Of a stretch of 64,000 bases of DNA, positions 13,411 to 16,910 are shown one piece after another. Each line of letters starts with the position of its first letter. The stretch's first letter is position 1. Source of the DNA: an uncultured Pelagibacteraceae bacterium (GTDB lineage: Bacteria > Pseudomonadota > Alphaproteobacteria > Pelagibacterales > Pelagibacteraceae); assembly GCA_902571135.1 (NCBI GenBank), contig CACGAU010000002.1, positions 1-64,000 of the forward strand, in the 5' to 3' direction. The notes beneath the pieces were generated by a model. The model had not been told where the DNA came from. It searched no databases and worked only from the letters and a program-made list of their open reading frames with translations. Both the position numbers and the translations under genes were made by a program.

Positions 13411-13416
13411 TATAAT
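13411..13416 (+). promoter_or_regulatory. -10 box of the left tRNA-Ser copy
   Basis: The hexamer TATAAT ends 17 bases before the tRNA-Ser 5' half. The same position before the intact tRNA (16534-16539) reads TATACT. The flanks (13394-13415 and 16517-16538) align without gaps but with several differences, so both copies carry a tRNA promoter. A convincing -35 box was not found. Confidence 0.5.
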
Positions 13417-13472
13417 TATAAAACCTTGCTCACGGAGAGATGGCTGAGCGGTTGAAAGCACCGGTCTTGAAA
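13416..13472 (+). repeat. Left 57-bp direct repeat (attL core)
   Basis: This block is identical to 16539-16595. It starts 18 bases before the tRNA-Ser 5' end, runs through the acceptor strand, D arm and anticodon stem, and stops in the anticodon loop at TTGAAA. Loss of identity in the anticodon loop is what tyrosine-recombinase crossover there would leave. Confidence 0.9.
13434..13472 (+). pseudogene. Orphan 5' half of tRNA-Ser(TGA)
   Basis: The first 39 nucleotides of tRNA-Ser, through the anticodon loop, are present with the -10 box, after which the sequence becomes unrelated (TACTAGGGATCCCC). It lacks the anticodon 3' stem, variable arm and T arm, so it cannot make a tRNA. It is the displaced 5' half left by island integration. 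Confidence 0.9.
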
Positions 13473-13589
13473 TACTAGGGATCCCCTACTCACCTTACGA
13501 CGTTTTACATACTTATTAGGTCATTACTAACTTTTTTAATTTTAGCTTTTACGAAAAACACATCATTCTTGGCTTGCCTAAGCTATCAA

Positions 13590-13611
13590 ACTTGTACGCC
13601 ACTTGTACGCA
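13590..13611 (+). repeat. Left pair of ACTTGTAC repeats (possible arm sites)
   Basis: ACTTGTAC occurs at 13590 and 13601, spaced 11 bp (one helical turn), about 118 bp inside the left core repeat. The 12-mer ACTTGTACGCCA (13590-13601) recurs exactly at the right end (16472-16483). The site lies downstream of the last island gene, which argues against it being only a promoter operator. Confidence 0.6.
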
Positions 13612-13623
13612 GAACTTTATTTA

Positions 13624-13956
13624 TTATGGTACTAAAGCATTTAATGTTGCAGTTAGCTTTATATCAAACTGAAGCAAGTCACCTAATTTTTTCATCTCTT
13701 TTAAGTTGTTTTGAACATCTATAAATTTATCTTTAGAAACTAAATTTTCTGCAACCAAAGATGCTAAAAGCATTCCCACTGGCATTTCGCTATTTGACTC
13801 ACCTAATTTAGCTAGAGATGGGAGTACTATGTTTACCAAGTCCTCCATTTGTTTTTTTAGAACTTTATCTTTTGATTTTACTTCATCAGGATCGTTAAAA
13901 TTTATGATGACGTAGTCATTGTAAAATTTGCTTATTTTATCTTTCTCGATGCTCAT
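13624..13956 (-). CDS. Hypothetical island protein (110 aa)
   Basis: I do not recognise this protein. It is 110 residues, mixed charge, and appears largely helical, with a hydrophobic central part (VNIVLPSLAKLG and PVGMLLASLVAENL) that is too short and too polar-flanked for a sure membrane segment. It is the last gene of the island operon; its ATG directly follows the TAA of the upstream gene. It has no signal peptide. A cytoplasmic role within the five-gene operon is inferred. Confidence 0.65.
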   Translation of the reverse strand: MSIEKDKISKFYNDYVIINFNDPDEVKSKDKVLKKQMEDLVNIVLPSLAKLGESNSEMPVGMLLASLVAENLVSKDKFIDVQNNLKEMKKLGDLLQFDIKLTATLNALVP

Positions 13957-14427
13957 TTACCACTTATCAAAATCTAGTATAGGATAATTATTAAACATTT
14001 TAGATAAGGCCTCAGTAGAAATAACTGTCCCACCTTTTTTAAATGACTCTTTACCTGCTGAAATAATCTTTAAACAAGTATTTTTATATTTTTCATAAAA
14101 TTTATCATTCTCATTAATTACAATTTCAGTTTGATTGTAAAGATGATTTGCAAAAGAGTTTATTTGATCTTCACTCAATTTAGATGCTGAACTTGAAGAG
14201 AGAATAAATTGTTTAAAGCAATTAATAAACCCATTTGAATATTGATTTTTTTCAAGCTGATTAGTTTCAAATGAGGCCTCAAAAATACCCCTAAAAAAAA
14301 ATGTTCTTACATTATAGAGTTTTTTTGCGTCAACATTCTCTAGCGTGTCTGAGAAAGAACGATAAAGGGAATCACAAACAGATACAGTAGGCTCTACATC
14401 TTCCCAAATTTTGTCTAATTTACTCAT
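13957..14427 (-). CDS. Hypothetical island protein (156 aa)
   Basis: I do not recognise this protein. It has 156 residues, no signal peptide or membrane helix, and a helical, acidic character with several aromatic residues. A serine-rich bend (ILSSSSASKLSEDQ) lies near residue 80, and the C-terminus is NYPILDFDKW. It overlaps the upstream 102-residue gene by 4 bases (ATGA) and abuts the downstream gene, so it is translated in the same operon. No catalytic motif is visible. Confidence 0.65.
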   Translation of the reverse strand: MSKLDKIWEDVEPTVSVCDSLYRSFSDTLENVDAKKLYNVRTFFFRGIFEASFETNQLEKNQYSNGFINCFKQFILSSSSASKLSEDQINSFANHLYNQTEIVINENDKFYEKYKNTCLKIISAGKESFKKGGTVISTEALSKMFNNYPILDFDKW

Positions 14428-14732
14428 TTTATAAGATTAATATTATTCTTTCTTCTTCTCTTAATCAATTCATCTACTTGAATCTTGATAAAGAGTTGTC
14501 TACCCATTTGAACAGCTTTAGCCTGTACTTCGCTTTTATGTTTAGTAGGTAATCTTTTTAAAGGTTTGCCTGGTGGATCATCATTTGCAAGAACATTATT
14601 AGCTGAATTAATCATACTTTGATCGACTATTCTTAATACTTCTTTCTTTTCATTAAAAGATAAGTTTTCAAGTATCTTAATTATACCGTTTCTTTCCTCT
14701 TGAGCTCTATAGTATTTATGATCTTCCGACAT
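14424..14732 (-). CDS. Hypothetical island protein (102 aa)
   Basis: I do not recognise this protein. It is 102 residues long; the N-terminal half is acidic and helical (SFNEKKEVLRIVDQSM) and the C-terminal half is strongly basic (KRLPTKHKSE, then VDELIKRRRKNNINLIK). The basic tail could bind nucleic acid, but no known fold is apparent. It overlaps the MORN gene by 17 bases and the next gene by 4 bases, so it is embedded in the operon. Confidence 0.65.
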   Translation of the reverse strand: MSEDHKYYRAQEERNGIIKILENLSFNEKKEVLRIVDQSMINSANNVLANDDPPGKPLKRLPTKHKSEVQAKAVQMGRQLFIKIQVDELIKRRRKNNINLIK

Positions 14733-15834
14733 TTTTAGGGTCCAATTTTTTTACAAAATCAACACCGAGACAACCATCTTTTTTATAATCCCACCATGCT
14801 TCACAATATTTTGTAAATTTCTTTTTTCCTTTTGGATCAAAATAAATAATAGTGATGTTAGAACGGATATGTCTAAAACCATCTTTAAAAATAACATCTT
14901 CAATTTGAATTACTTTATCACCTTTAGATCTTTTTATTGTGTCACCTAAATAATTACGTTCCTCTATCGTATCAGTTATTTTACCTCTGCCATGATATGA
15001 GTTATTTCTAAAATTTCCTTTATAAGAGTCGGTGTAGCCATAAGTATTTTTACTTGTTTTATTATCGAAAGGATCCATTGGTATCATATATTCACCCAAT
15101 CCATTTCTCATAAAGTTTTTAAAATTCCCAATATATTTATTGGCCAGTTGAGAATAATTATGTTGATACATGGTCCCTTTAACCATTTGATTATCTTTCC
15201 ACTGACCATCGTATTTGCCGCCATGACCAAATTCTAAATAAAAATTATATTTTTTTAAAAAGAGACCATAACCATGCATTTTTTTAAAATATTTCTTGTA
15301 GTTTTTTAATTGCTCTTTTCTGAAATCACTTTTTTCCCATACCTTTAAACCACCCATACTTGACATAAGGGCGAAATTTTCAGGCCAAATTAATTTACCT
15401 GAACCATCGTATTTTCCATTTTTGAAATTACCAATATAATATGCACCGTCATAGTAATTAAAAACACCTTTGCCATGAGGCTTTTTGTTTTTAATACCAC
15501 CTTTGTATGAGCCATAAGGAAATATTAAATTTTCTTTACCAGTTATAAATCCAAAGAACTTTTCATTTTTTATATTAAATAACTTTGAACTAACTGTTTT
15601 ATAATCTTGATAATCATATTTAATATTAAATTTTTGATATAATCTCTCTAATAAAGTTGGATCTTTTAATGTATCTGTGAATAGAGCCATTAATAATTCA
15701 TCTGATTTTACTTTTTGAATAGTTTTAGGCGAAGGATCCTTAAAGTACCATTGACCATCAGATGATCTTTGGTGTTTACATAATTTTCTAAATTTTTTTA
15801 GTTTTGTTAAGATAAGCTTATCTAAATCTGTCAT
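14716..15834 (-). CDS. MORN-repeat protein of the tRNA-Ser island
   Basis: The protein has 372 residues. After a charged helical N-terminus (1-95) come MORN-like repeats, with tyrosine-glycine cores at about residues 107-129 (YGSYKGGIKNKKPHGKG), 130-152 (YYIGNFKNGKYDGSGK), 205-225, 232-252 and 269-289 (YKGNFRNNSYHGRGK). An insert at about 153-204 splits the array. The C-terminal part (310-372) holds three residues of note: C344, the pair W347-W348, and C355. MORN repeats mediate lipid or protein contacts in eukaryotes and are scattered in bacteria with little known function. There is no signal peptide. It is the largest cargo gene and the only one with a recognised motif. Confidence 0.8.
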   Translation of the reverse strand: MTDLDKLILTKLKKFRKLCKHQRSSDGQWYFKDPSPKTIQKVKSDELLMALFTDTLKDPTLLERLYQKFNIKYDYQDYKTVSSKLFNIKNEKFFGFITGKENLIFPYGSYKGGIKNKKPHGKGVFNYYDGAYYIGNFKNGKYDGSGKLIWPENFALMSSMGGLKVWEKSDFRKEQLKNYKKYFKKMHGYGLFLKKYNFYLEFGHGGKYDGQWKDNQMVKGTMYQHNYSQLANKYIGNFKNFMRNGLGEYMIPMDPFDNKTSKNTYGYTDSYKGNFRNNSYHGRGKITDTIEERNYLGDTIKRSKGDKVIQIEDVIFKDGFRHIRSNITIIYFDPKGKKKFTKYCEAWWDYKKDGCLGVDFVKKLDPKNVGRS

Positions 15835-15844
15835 AGGTATTTAT

Positions 15845-16402
15845 TCATATCCTTTTTTTAATAGAAAACATCGTATCATAATTCTCTACTTCAGGACCTT
15901 CATACTCAAAATCATAAGAGTATACATCGTAGATACCATTATCCACTTTATATGTGAAAGAGTTATTCCATTCATTTTTTTGTGTCTTTTGATTTTTTAT
16001 GAGATGATGTTTATATCCTGTATCTACAAGTGCATTGAAACTAATTTTACCTGTTGTGATTTTAACATCGCCTGTTTTGGATGACTCATTGTCAATTTTT
16101 TTTATTAAATCATCTACTTTAATATGTTTAAGAGAATTTAAAGGAATATAGTAAAAATTCTTTGGTTTTTTCTTTTCTTTATCCTCTAAGTATACTCCAC
16201 ATAAAACTGTTCCAAAATCAGCGTCATGAGTAGAATAAATAGCAGTTAATTTTGTGTTCTTAATTTTACCTATATTTAAGAGATTTGTTGTTCCTTTTGA
16301 TATAATTTTAAGATTTGATGATTTATTTATTATTTCATCATCGCCAATTATCAAAAATTGATGTTGATGTATTGTCGATTTACTTAAAATAAATTTACTC
16401 AT
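15845..16402 (-). CDS. Hypothetical island protein (185 aa), first gene of operon
   Basis: I do not recognise this protein. It has 185 residues, no signal peptide or membrane helix, and alternating hydrophobic patterns that suggest a mostly beta fold (HQFLIIGDDEI, TKLTAIYST, GTVLCGVYLED, YDVYSYDFEYEG). It is the first gene of the island operon, 10 bases before the MORN gene. No ribosome binding site is obvious. The upstream region contains the right pair of ACTTGTAC repeats and -10-like TATATT on the minus strand at about 16450-16455. Confidence 0.65.
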   Translation of the reverse strand: MSKFILSKSTIHQHQFLIIGDDEIINKSSNLKIISKGTTNLLNIGKIKNTKLTAIYSTHDADFGTVLCGVYLEDKEKKKPKNFYYIPLNSLKHIKVDDLIKKIDNESSKTGDVKITTGKISFNALVDTGYKHHLIKNQKTQKNEWNNSFTYKVDNGIYDVYSYDFEYEGPEVENYDTMFSIKKRI

Positions 16403-16460
16403 TTGTGTGAACTTTTAATTCATTTAAAACTAAATATTTCATGTAGGAGAATATAGGATA

Positions 16461-16483
16461 ACTTGTACAAGACTTGTACGCCA
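16461..16483 (+). repeat. Right pair of ACTTGTAC repeats (possible arm sites or operator)
   Basis: ACTTGTAC occurs at 16461 and 16472, spaced 11 bp and in the same orientation as the left pair. It sits about 60 bp upstream of the first island gene and about 56 bp inside the right core repeat. Read on the minus strand it overlaps the place of a -35 box for the island operon, so it could also be an operator. Confidence 0.6.
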
Positions 16484-16538
16484 GGCAAAATTTTTAAAAA
16501 AAAAAGCTCTGTTTTTTAGTTGAATTTTAATAATATAC

Positions 16539-16595
16539 TTATAAAACCTTGCTCACGGAGAGATGGCTGAGCGGTTGAAAGCACCGGTCTTGAAA
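16539..16595 (+). repeat. Right 57-bp direct repeat (attR core)
   Basis: This is an exact copy of 13416-13472, here forming the leader and 5' half of the intact tRNA-Ser. After position 16595 the sequence continues into the 3' half of the tRNA, while the left copy diverges. Confidence 0.9.
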
Positions 16596-16646
16596 ACCGG
16601 CAAAGGGGCAACTCTTTCCTGGGTTCGAATCCCAGTCTCTCCGCCA
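16557..16646 (+). tRNA. tRNA-Ser (anticodon TGA)
   Basis: This 90-nt class II tRNA has acceptor GGAGAGA pairing with TCTCTCC, anticodon stem CCGGT/ACCGG with loop CTTGAAA (anticodon TGA), a long variable arm, a T arm with GGGTTCGAATCCC and an encoded CCA. A -10-like TATACT lies at 16534-16539. The promoter and 5' half are the part duplicated by the island. The last A of CCA touches the stop codon of the convergent sdhE gene. Confidence 0.97.
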
Positions 16647-16910
16647 TCATTTTTGTGTATAGTTAAAATTTTTATATAAGAAATTGATATTATTATTTTC
16701 AAATTCAAAATCAGTTTTAAAACCATTGTAAAAATTATACAAATTAGTGTCATCAATATTCAGTAGTTTTTCTAAATCAAGAAGATCATTTTCATTTAAA
16801 TTATTTATATATTTTTTTGTAAATGCACCCAAAAGATTATCCATTTCTTTTGTGCCTCTATAATTAGATCGGTAAATAATTTTTTTTTTTAATTCATCTA
16901 TATTGATCAT
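16647..16910 (-). CDS. sdhE: SdhE-family flavinylation factor
   Basis: This 87-residue protein is of the SdhE/YgfY/Sdh5 family (antitoxin CptB in older annotation). It helps attach FAD covalently to the succinate dehydrogenase flavoprotein. The family signature RGTKEMDNLLGAF (residues 18-30) contains the RGxxE motif, and later LLDLEKLLNIDD and LYNFYNG match the fold. It is divergent from recG with a 25-base gap, an arrangement common in alphaproteobacteria. Its stop codon begins immediately after the tRNA-Ser CCA on the other strand. Confidence 0.92.
   Translation of the reverse strand: MINIDELKKKIIYRSNYRGTKEMDNLLGAFTKKYINNLNENDLLDLEKLLNIDDTNLYNFYNGFKTDFEFENNNINFLYKNFNYTQK

Follow-up and report, generated by a model that had tools for sequence, protein, structure and literature searches.

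Integrase-less gene cassettes in tRNA genes of SAR11

How can a DNA segment that encodes no recombinase come to lie precisely within a tRNA gene? The question is raised by a 3.1-kb insert found in an uncultured Pelagibacteraceae bacterium (assembly GCA_902571135.1, contig CACGAU010000002.1), in the 64,000-nucleotide stretch analysed here, positions 1 to 64,000 of the contig, which is called the window. In the initial annotation, the insert was described as an integrase-less island flanked by 57-bp direct repeats in the 5' half of tRNA-Ser(TGA), and was interpreted as a non-autonomous integrative element or phage satellite mobilised in trans. Genomes are denoted below by G, elements by e, and other contigs or loci by L.

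The insert and its ends

The observation is confirmed. The repeats at 13416-13472 and 16539-16595, both on the plus strand, are identical at 57 of 57 positions and lie 3123 bp apart. The left copy is the native leader and 5' half of tRNA-Ser(TGA), cut off after the anticodon loop (attL side), and the flank on its left continues as in G320, a relative having an empty site. The right copy is an element-borne leader and 5' half (attR side), and restores the intact tRNA-Ser(TGA), identified by ARAGORN at 16557-16646 (+). The shared block ends at the last base of the anticodon loop (CTTGAAA). Only these two places were found when the window's own genome was searched with 105 bp from the left copy. 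The sdhE gene (16647-16910, Pfam Sdh5, E 1.5e-16) begins at the base following the tRNA. An intact tRNA and a displaced fragment thus mark the ends, as in tRNA-integrated genomic islands.

Five ORFs, all on the minus strand, are found between the repeats. The first (13624-13956, 110 aa) has no significant Pfam, PHROGs or PADLOC match, but has a homologue in element e42 of G411. The second (13957-14427, 156 aa) has only a weak PHROGs match (E 0.019). The third (14424-14732, 102 aa) belongs to a family of unknown function found by blastp clustering in five elements (e0, e13, e22, e42, e49). The fourth (14716-15834, 372 aa) is a MORN-repeat protein, the only one of the five with a significant Pfam match (E 9.6e-14), and has a homologue in e42. 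The fifth (15845-16402, 185 aa) is unknown, and has homologues in e42 and e49. The best PADLOC match of the five proteins has E 0.023, and a defence role is therefore not supported. A phage origin of the cargo was rejected, as no relative of the MORN protein was found in viral contigs or phage records. No PF00589 protein, and no relative of the divergent integrase described below, was found in the assembled genome, which is 87% complete.

A feature overlooked in the initial annotation is the presence of tandem 11-bp repeats just inside both ends, denoted here arm-type repeats. On the left, ACTTGTACGCC and ACTTGTACGCA are found at 13590-13611 (+); on the right, ACTTGTACAAG and ACTTGTACGCC are found at 16461-16482 (+). 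The sequence ACTTGTACG occurs 4 times in the window against 0.11 expected; three of the four are in these repeats, the fourth (48917) is elsewhere. The 117 nt at 13473-13589, between core and left repeats, form a conserved left end: in 36 left ends having the repeats at offset 148, stacked without gaps, the mean share of the majority base is 0.86. The segment 16483-16556 (+) is the element-borne leader of the tRNA gene. The right-end consensus over 29 elements is GTTGAAtTT..TATACTTATAAAACCTTGCTcAC, and the leader differs in several elements from the native leader kept at the left end. The segment is presumably a promoter region, but promoter activity was not assayed, and the hexamer spacing judged by eye is not convincing, so that no claim is made. 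The 57-bp repeat is larger than the crossover region, which is an amendment to the initial annotation. In eleven of 41 elements the identical block is 23 bp or less, and in one array, in G411, it is reduced to GTCTTGAAA, corresponding in the window to 16587-16595 (+) in the anticodon loop. This smallest shared segment is the inferred crossover region, and its last base is the right limit of identity in 37 of the 41 elements.

Many cassettes at one tRNA

The initial annotation would have been contradicted had all related genomes carried these genes at the same place without the repeat, or had the repeat been a simple tandem tRNA duplication lacking empty-site strains. Neither holds. The site is empty in G320, is occupied by another cassette in G192, and by an array including an integrase-bearing element in G405, a close relative. 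The 1-kb flanks of the three are 94-95% (left) and 87-92% (right) identical to those of the window, although the occupants differ. A tRNA duplication or an assembly artefact could be suspected because many of the genomes are single-cell assemblies. This reading is refuted, as the same architecture recurs in dozens of genomes, at two tRNAs and in arrays, and an empty-site relative exists.

Forty-one two-ended insertions, ranging from 0.25 to 9.0 kb and in some instances in tandem, were found at tRNA-Ser(TGA) in SAR11 genomes. Profiles of eight divergent integrases and of 30 SAR11 PF00589 proteins both detect an integrase only in e45, the element of G405, among 52 elements or left ends, some of them incomplete. 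One OCS116 hit (L122), lacking arm repeats, was left out of the element counts. Of the other 51 left ends, 47 have recognised repeats, which in 46 start 145-149 nt from GGCTGAG (looked for within 120-185 nt). Of the four remaining, L109, L130 and L136 are cut short and repeat other elements, since their starts agree with L166, L035 and L168, respectively (the 39 bases present in L109 also fit others, and the extent of the contig decided), and L134 is imperfect. Genome G677 is taken to be G405. Right repeats start at -103 to -105 from GGCTGAG in the 40 two-ended elements in which they were recognised, e47 being the exception.

Repeats match between the ends of an element but differ between elements, as arm-type integrase sites would. 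Arm 8-mers are identical at both ends in 37 of 40 elements, and in 34 of 36 distinct integrase-less elements, against a mean of 4.69 and a maximum of 14 in 20,000 shufflings. A 14.7-kb insertion in G405 has different alleles at its two ends; it is not included in the 40 pairs, because its ends lie on two loci. Cargo genes are oriented mostly in one way: 91 of 98 mechanically called ORFs of at least 90 aa face against the tRNA, and 72 of 75 when repeat copies of one cassette and incomplete elements are left out. Restriction, caspase or NB-ARC genes were found in at least fifteen of 47 cassettes, in one (e17) by homology; not every ORF was scanned, and the family lists used comprised up to 25 entries. 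Some of the swappable genes of the cassettes are likely anti-virus.

The cassettes may alternatively be immobile deletion remnants of once autonomous elements, kept for their genes and shuffled by homologous recombination through the flanks. These would resemble CIMEs, which have attL and attR but no recombination genes. In favour of this view, no excised circle of a cargo-only cassette was seen, one 251-bp element is just two ends, the composite insertion of G405 has unlike ends, and integrase-less e1 and integrase-bearing e45 share the first ~45 bases of the left end. However, left repeats are 11 nt apart in cargo-only elements and 25 nt apart in three integrase-bearing elements, so that most cassettes are not simple deletions. 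Moreover, ends are conserved and allele-matched, and gene orientation is kept, over many unrelated cargoes, and arrays hold members with different alleles. The hypothesis is regarded as unlikely, though exchange of cassettes by homologous recombination through the flanks could also occur.

Integrase-bearing elements

Element e45 is inserted at the same tRNA as the window element. Satellite-like elements of this kind encode an integrase, a primase, a PDDEXK/RusA-like nuclease and small proteins. Several relatives of e45 are inserted at tRNA-Leu(TAA), also in the 5' half, as found for the G182, G248 and G509 elements; the sites of L184, L200 and L201 were not identified. Seven complete integrase-less elements at tRNA-Leu(TAA) have the same geometry. 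Residues R365, K408, R498, H521 and Y531 are invariant in the eight integrases, all of which have PHROG integrase matches, while the first His of the HxxR motif is not conserved. An AlphaFold model of the L199 integrase had a mean pLDDT of 37 and was not used, and a sequence search of the PDB gave no credible match. Searches of viral contigs or phage records with the single sequence of the e45 primase or integrase gave nothing. In contrast, a four-sequence alignment identified three related viral-collection contigs of ~8.9 kb. These have terminal repeats, and are therefore probably circles; one carries attP of tRNA-Leu(TAA). Packaging by a helper phage, which defines a phage satellite, was not measured here, and the presence of the three relatives in the viral collection is only indirect evidence.

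Three integrase-bearing elements share repeat alleles (ACTTGAGACA, ACCAGCACA and ACTAGAAAC) with integrase-less cassettes. None was found with the window's allele, ACTTGTAC. The repeat pair is carried by 13 of 394 genus genomes. Besides the window and G182, whose integrase element has other repeats, the other 11 were searched with four integrases, and none holds one. In viral contigs, a search for the exact pair gave no hits and a looser one gave 14, none near a tRNA-Ser or tRNA-Leu half or a related integrase. Integrase-bearing elements are rare, being found in 4 of 397 family genomes, and in 10 of 379 genus genomes, 4 of these being weak hits and one in fragments. In two integrase-bearing elements, other than the three with the 25-nt spacing, no left pair was recognised.

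The integrase could in principle be supplied mainly by temperate pelagiphages. The rarity of the small satellite-like elements, and the lack of one with the window's allele, speak for this. A search of viral contigs for the 5' half of tRNA-Ser gave 19 hits: 16 have an intact tRNA-Ser, and three belong to a phage-like lineage with its own 425-aa integrase near the tRNA half, which also speaks for this view. However, no repeat pair was seen beside the tRNA half in that lineage, one strand having been searched. A distant search of phage records gave 527 records; 30 of the 40 listed are annotated tRNA-Ser genes, and 487 were not inspected. A search for viral attP by junction pattern gave 16 contigs, none with the junction; 15 share one phage gene and one (L148) is unrelated. 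Of eleven other SAR11 PF00589 integrase loci of about 3.5 kb, 8 lie beside other tRNAs and 3 beside none, and no such pairs were found. A main role of pelagiphages is held to be quite improbable. Even less probable is mobilisation by the host Xer recombinase, as for dif-using phages (IMEX). A PF00589 match, mostly a single protein of about 310-325 aa, is found in 302 of 397 family genomes, and lies 16-20 kb from this tRNA in, for example, G003, G017 and G078. However, allele-matched repeat pairs at both ends would have no role for one invariant Xer, and an integrase-bearing element uses the same site.

Proposed mobilisation in trans and related systems

The interpretation given in the initial annotation is supported, with two amendments: the crossover region is smaller than 57 bp, and the likely carrier of the integrase is a small satellite-like element. 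The explanation favoured, with good though not full confidence, is that the island is a non-autonomous, cargo-only integrative cassette. Its excised form would carry attP, made of right arm repeats, tRNA leader and 5' half, a crossover in the anticodon loop, the conserved left end and left arm repeats. In this view, a tyrosine integrase supplied in trans would bind arm repeats and core, and insert the circle at the anticodon loop of tRNA-Ser(TGA); the leader and 5' half of the element would then rebuild the tRNA gene with the native 3' half. The integrase would come from satellite-like elements that use the same or another tRNA and carry the same arm-repeat allele, and the payload would be a swappable host or anti-phage gene set. 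The analysis directly documents precise insertion and the empty site, many different cassettes at one site, tandem arrays, near-fixed end geometry, matched arm alleles, an integrase-bearing element at the same site in a close relative, alleles common to elements with and without integrase, and contigs of integrase-bearing elements with terminal repeats. That the repeats are the arm sites of the integrase, that the enzyme acts in trans, that the contigs are excised circles, and that the five genes of the insert help the host is inferred; movement itself was not observed. A broader view, possible but somewhat less likely than not, is that SAR11 populations run a shared, integron-like cassette economy at tRNA 5' halves. 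Integrase-less cassettes, many of them anti-phage, would carry allele-matched arm repeats acting as barcodes for particular satellite integrases, gather in tandem arrays beside one tRNA, and be swapped whenever a satellite with the matching integrase passes through.

Several known systems may be compared. Use of the 5' half of a tRNA is unusual, as noted in the initial annotation: 159 of 3919 islands in Islander have a 5' fragment (PMC4383910). In these islands too, restored tRNA and displaced fragment mark the ends. Islander, however, requires a PF00589 integrase and at least 2 kb, and the integrase-less cassettes, including the window element, would fail its integrase filter. Tycheposons (Hackl et al. 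2023, Cell), which encode a deep-branching tyrosine recombinase, share tRNA insertion, a divergent tyrosine recombinase, cargo-bearing and satellite-like forms and marine hosts. The window element encodes no recombinase, and cargo-only cassettes with allele-matched repeats were not found in the account of tycheposons in PMC10872708. Elements e45 and relatives, where the site is identified, are integrated at tRNA genes; their divergent integrase is missed by PF00589, but hit by PHROG_1 and weakly by a profile of SAR11 PF00589 proteins. As no tycheposon sequence was compared, these data do not assign the enzyme to the deep-branching recombinases.

PICMI satellites (PMC10803314) resemble e45 in having an integrase, and possibly in AlpA, for which e45 has a weak AlpA-like HTH, and in the primase, for which e45 has a DUF5906 match, but the host of e45 is SAR11. 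Neither PF00589 nor a serine recombinase model, one of which is expected of PICMI, was found among Pfam matches up to E 0.1 of ten e45 proteins, and a Xer-like protein alone was detected in G405. The AlpA-like match (HTH_17, E 0.012, against PF05930/PF12728 in PICMI) is under the cut-off; DUF5906 (E 1.4e-9) is above it, but DUF3987 was not among the matches; no Fis regulator was identified in the 10 of 14 e45 ORFs scanned. None of the three traits thus settles whether e45 is PICMI-like. CALIN integron cassette arrays and MITEs (PMC11389934) are also non-autonomous units moved by an enzyme encoded elsewhere. Arrays are found in SAR11 too, with genes mostly in one orientation, but the target is a tRNA 5' half and the ends have arm-type repeats; attC sites and transposase ends were not looked for. 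No description of integrase-less SAR11 tRNA cassettes was found in the literature listings searched, which is no proof of absence, as Hackl 2023 and Williams 2002 were not covered.

SAR11 is among the most abundant groups on Earth, and has small genomes and few recognised mobile elements. If the reading is right, part of its gene turnover, defence genes included, runs through cassettes of about 1-4 kb that an island finder such as Islander discards for lack of a PF00589 integrase, and many also for length. The allele-matched repeats make mobilisation in trans directly testable. They also suggest that integrase arm specificity can change while the target tRNA stays fixed, and that one repeat allele can serve two tRNAs.

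Structure and occupancy of the tRNA-Ser(TGA) site

Two identical 57-bp copies of the tRNA-Ser(TGA) leader and 5' half are found 3123 bp apart in the window. The right copy belongs to the intact tRNA gene located at 16557-16646. Five ORFs lie between the two copies, all on the minus strand, and of these only the 372-aa MORN protein is recognizable. A PF00589 search of the assembled genome gave no hits. The repeats, the five genes and the lack of a recombinase noticed in the initial annotation are thus confirmed. The Xer-like gene found 16-20 kb from this tRNA in relatives such as G003, G017 and G078 may fall beyond the contig start, since the window begins at base 1 of its contig, C2. Most of the SAR11 genomes listed in a search of 397 genomes feature a single PF00589 protein of about 310-325 aa, and hence perhaps one Xer rather than XerC plus XerD. 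Relatives of the site come from Pelagibacteraceae (SAR11) records.

Comparison with related genomes lacking the island had been suggested in advance as a check on its mobility, and an empty site was found. Genome G320 has the same tRNA with no insert, and its left and right 1-kb flanks are 94.4% and 92.2% identical to those of the window. Genome G192 (94.9% and 86.9%) hosts at this site a 3.2-kb cassette with glycosyltransferase, phosphoesterase and diacylglycerol-kinase matches. Genome G405 (94.8% and 92.3%) hosts an array that includes an integrase element. One site has thus four states among close relatives.

The 5'-half pattern, allowing up to 3 mismatches, matched 269 of 397 family genomes. 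Six of these, including that of the window, had two copies on one strand, and G178 had copies on two contigs. A search of GTDB contigs with the junction pattern gave 43 stretches, 42 from SAR11 and one from OCS116. In the latter (locus L122), copies of a tRNA-Ser 5' half are found 2.6 kb apart, along with a 711-aa ORF, but arm repeats are missing. With the additional regions retrieved, the catalogue included 52 left ends, 42 of which with both ends. Leaving out OCS116, 41 two-ended elements range from 251 to 9006 bp, with a median of 2145 bp. The smallest, found in genome G410 (locus L138), consists only of two ends with ACTTGAGACAA repeats, and has no ORF of 60 aa or more. Tandem arrays occur in G409 (two), G411 (two) and G398 (three).

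Matched end repeats and the inferred crossover region

Two 11-bp direct repeats lie inside the ends of the elements. They were looked for within 120-185 nt on the left, and in the last 130 nt on the right. On the left, they were recognized in 47 of 51 ends, and start 145-149 nt from GGCTGAG in 46, and at 137 nt in one. On the right, they were recognized in 40 of 41 ends, and start at -103 to -105 in all 40. The first 8 bases agree between the two ends in 37 of 40 elements. In each of the three exceptions, one of the two second repeats still matches. After removing duplicates and the integrase-bearing element, agreement was found in 34 of 36 elements, against a mean of 4.69 and a maximum of 14 in 20,000 shuffles. 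A 14.7-kb insertion in G405 with different end alleles looks like a fusion of two elements, and is outside that count. Binding is not shown, but arm-type sites of some tyrosine integrases look like two tandem repeats about one helical turn apart on each side of a core.

The two copies of the tRNA segment agree up to the last base of the anticodon loop in 37 of 41 elements; the other four are followed by, or are, further left ends. In contrast, the left limit varies. In eleven elements the shared block is 23 bp or less, and the smallest is GTCTTGAAA. In several elements the left copy keeps a leader that differs from the one brought by the element at the right. So the element replaces the leader and the 5' half, and leaves the 3' half, and sdhE beside it, native.

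A phage-like lineage in viral contigs (L053, L064, L070) has a tRNA-Ser 5' half that diverges just after the anticodon stem begins, with a 425-aa tyrosine integrase near it in L064, and is a separate case of 5'-half use. In genome G156 (L231, 6898 and 8145) a 56-bp repeat of the 3' part of tRNA-Leu(TAA) is found beside 5'-half elements, and both halves of one tRNA appear to be used. In G006 the 5' half of a tRNA-Met (CAT) is duplicated (L185, 9793 and 14456) around a 141-aa fragment of the divergent integrase described below and unrelated genes. The same genome features a 48-bp duplication of a tRNA-Cys 5' part (L186, 3335 and 6093), in which both copies are called as tRNA-Cys genes. A 54-bp repeat of part of tRNA-Thr was found in G440 (L229, 11368 and 12608).

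Integrase-bearing relatives and shared repeat alleles

A search for elements with an integrase at tRNA-Ser(TGA), also proposed beforehand, identified element e45 in G405 (locus L162, 9.0 kb). It encodes a 558-aa protein with a PHROG integrase match (E 6.5e-15), a primase (AEP-TOTE, DUF5906; PHROG primase E 2.1e-30), a RusA-like nuclease (PHROG E 1.6e-11) and a weak HTH_17. Among 52 elements or left ends, some of which incomplete, a profile of eight such integrases finds one in e45 alone, and so does a profile of 30 SAR11 PF00589 proteins (E 1.3e-7). Relatives were found in 4 of 397 family genomes and in 10 of 379 genus genomes, four of these being weak and one in fragments. Those in G182, G248 and G509 are located in the 5' half of tRNA-Leu(TAA). 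R365, K408, R498, H521 and Y531 are invariant in eight integrases. Their catalytic roles are inferred, and the first His of HxxR is not conserved. In three integrase-bearing elements (L162, L182, L203) the left repeats are 25 nt apart; in L162 they flank the integrase start codon, which suggests that the integrase controls its own gene. Viral contigs L199, L200 and L201 have terminal direct repeats of 99, 81 and 98 bp, and unit lengths of 8914, 8922 and 8885 bp, respectively. No tRNA half was identified in L200 and L201, while L199 bears the tRNA-Leu(TAA) 5' half with right arm repeats.

Repeat alleles are shared by elements with and without integrase. ACTTGAGACA is found on e45 and on the integrase-less elements e10, e16, e18 and e37. 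ACCAGCACA is found on the G509 integrase element and on integrase-less element B of G182, ACTAGAAAC on the G248 integrase element and on e20, e40 and e50. The repeats of the integrase elements of G182 and L199 were not found on a cassette. The ACTTGTAC pair of the window occurs in 13 of 394 genus genomes, against none for the reversed pattern, at tRNA-Ser(TGA) and tRNA-Leu(TAA), but no integrase element bearing it was found in the genomes and viral contigs searched. At tRNA-Leu(TAA), seven complete integrase-less elements, identified in G182, G516, G463, G440 and G156, feature left repeats at +126/127 and right repeats at -102/-103. First repeats agree between the ends in six, and differ by one base in the seventh.

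Cargo genes and probable mode of mobilization

In integrase-less elements, 91 of 98 mechanically called ORFs of at least 90 aa face against the tRNA, 72 of 75 when repeat copies and incomplete elements are left out. Matches include type IIG, type III and Mrr/ResIII restriction, SNF2/PLD helicase, caspases, NB-ARC, trypsin-like, HNH, DUF4379, MORN and lipid or sugar genes. By our tally, 15 of 47 distinct integrase-less elements or left ends have a restriction, caspase or NB-ARC gene. The genes of the window have no defence match, so a defence role for them is by association only. An integrase-less element at tRNA-Leu(TAA) in G182 (L183, 690-6242) carries tandem pseudopilin-like genes with a near-identical N-terminus (KAFTLIELLVVVAIIGILAAVG...). 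Repeats in L227, L229 and L232 suggest the same, as if pilin variants were cargo.

Islander reports 159 of 3919 islands with a 5' fragment, and filters on a PF00589 integrase and a length of 2 kb (PMC4383910). According to the PICMI paper, excision of known satellites requires satellite-encoded integrases (PMC10803314). Related work includes a hitcher review (PMC11389934), Methylophilaceae tycheposons (PMC10872708), marine gene-transfer rates (PMC12416821) and the Charybdis preprint (PMC12324425). In the initial annotation the island was interpreted as a non-autonomous integrative element or phage satellite mobilized in trans, and this inference is supported and extended by the present data. 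Binding of the integrase to the arms, its action in trans and packaging are all inferred. The likeliest mechanism is trans-mobilization by satellite-borne integrases through matched repeats.
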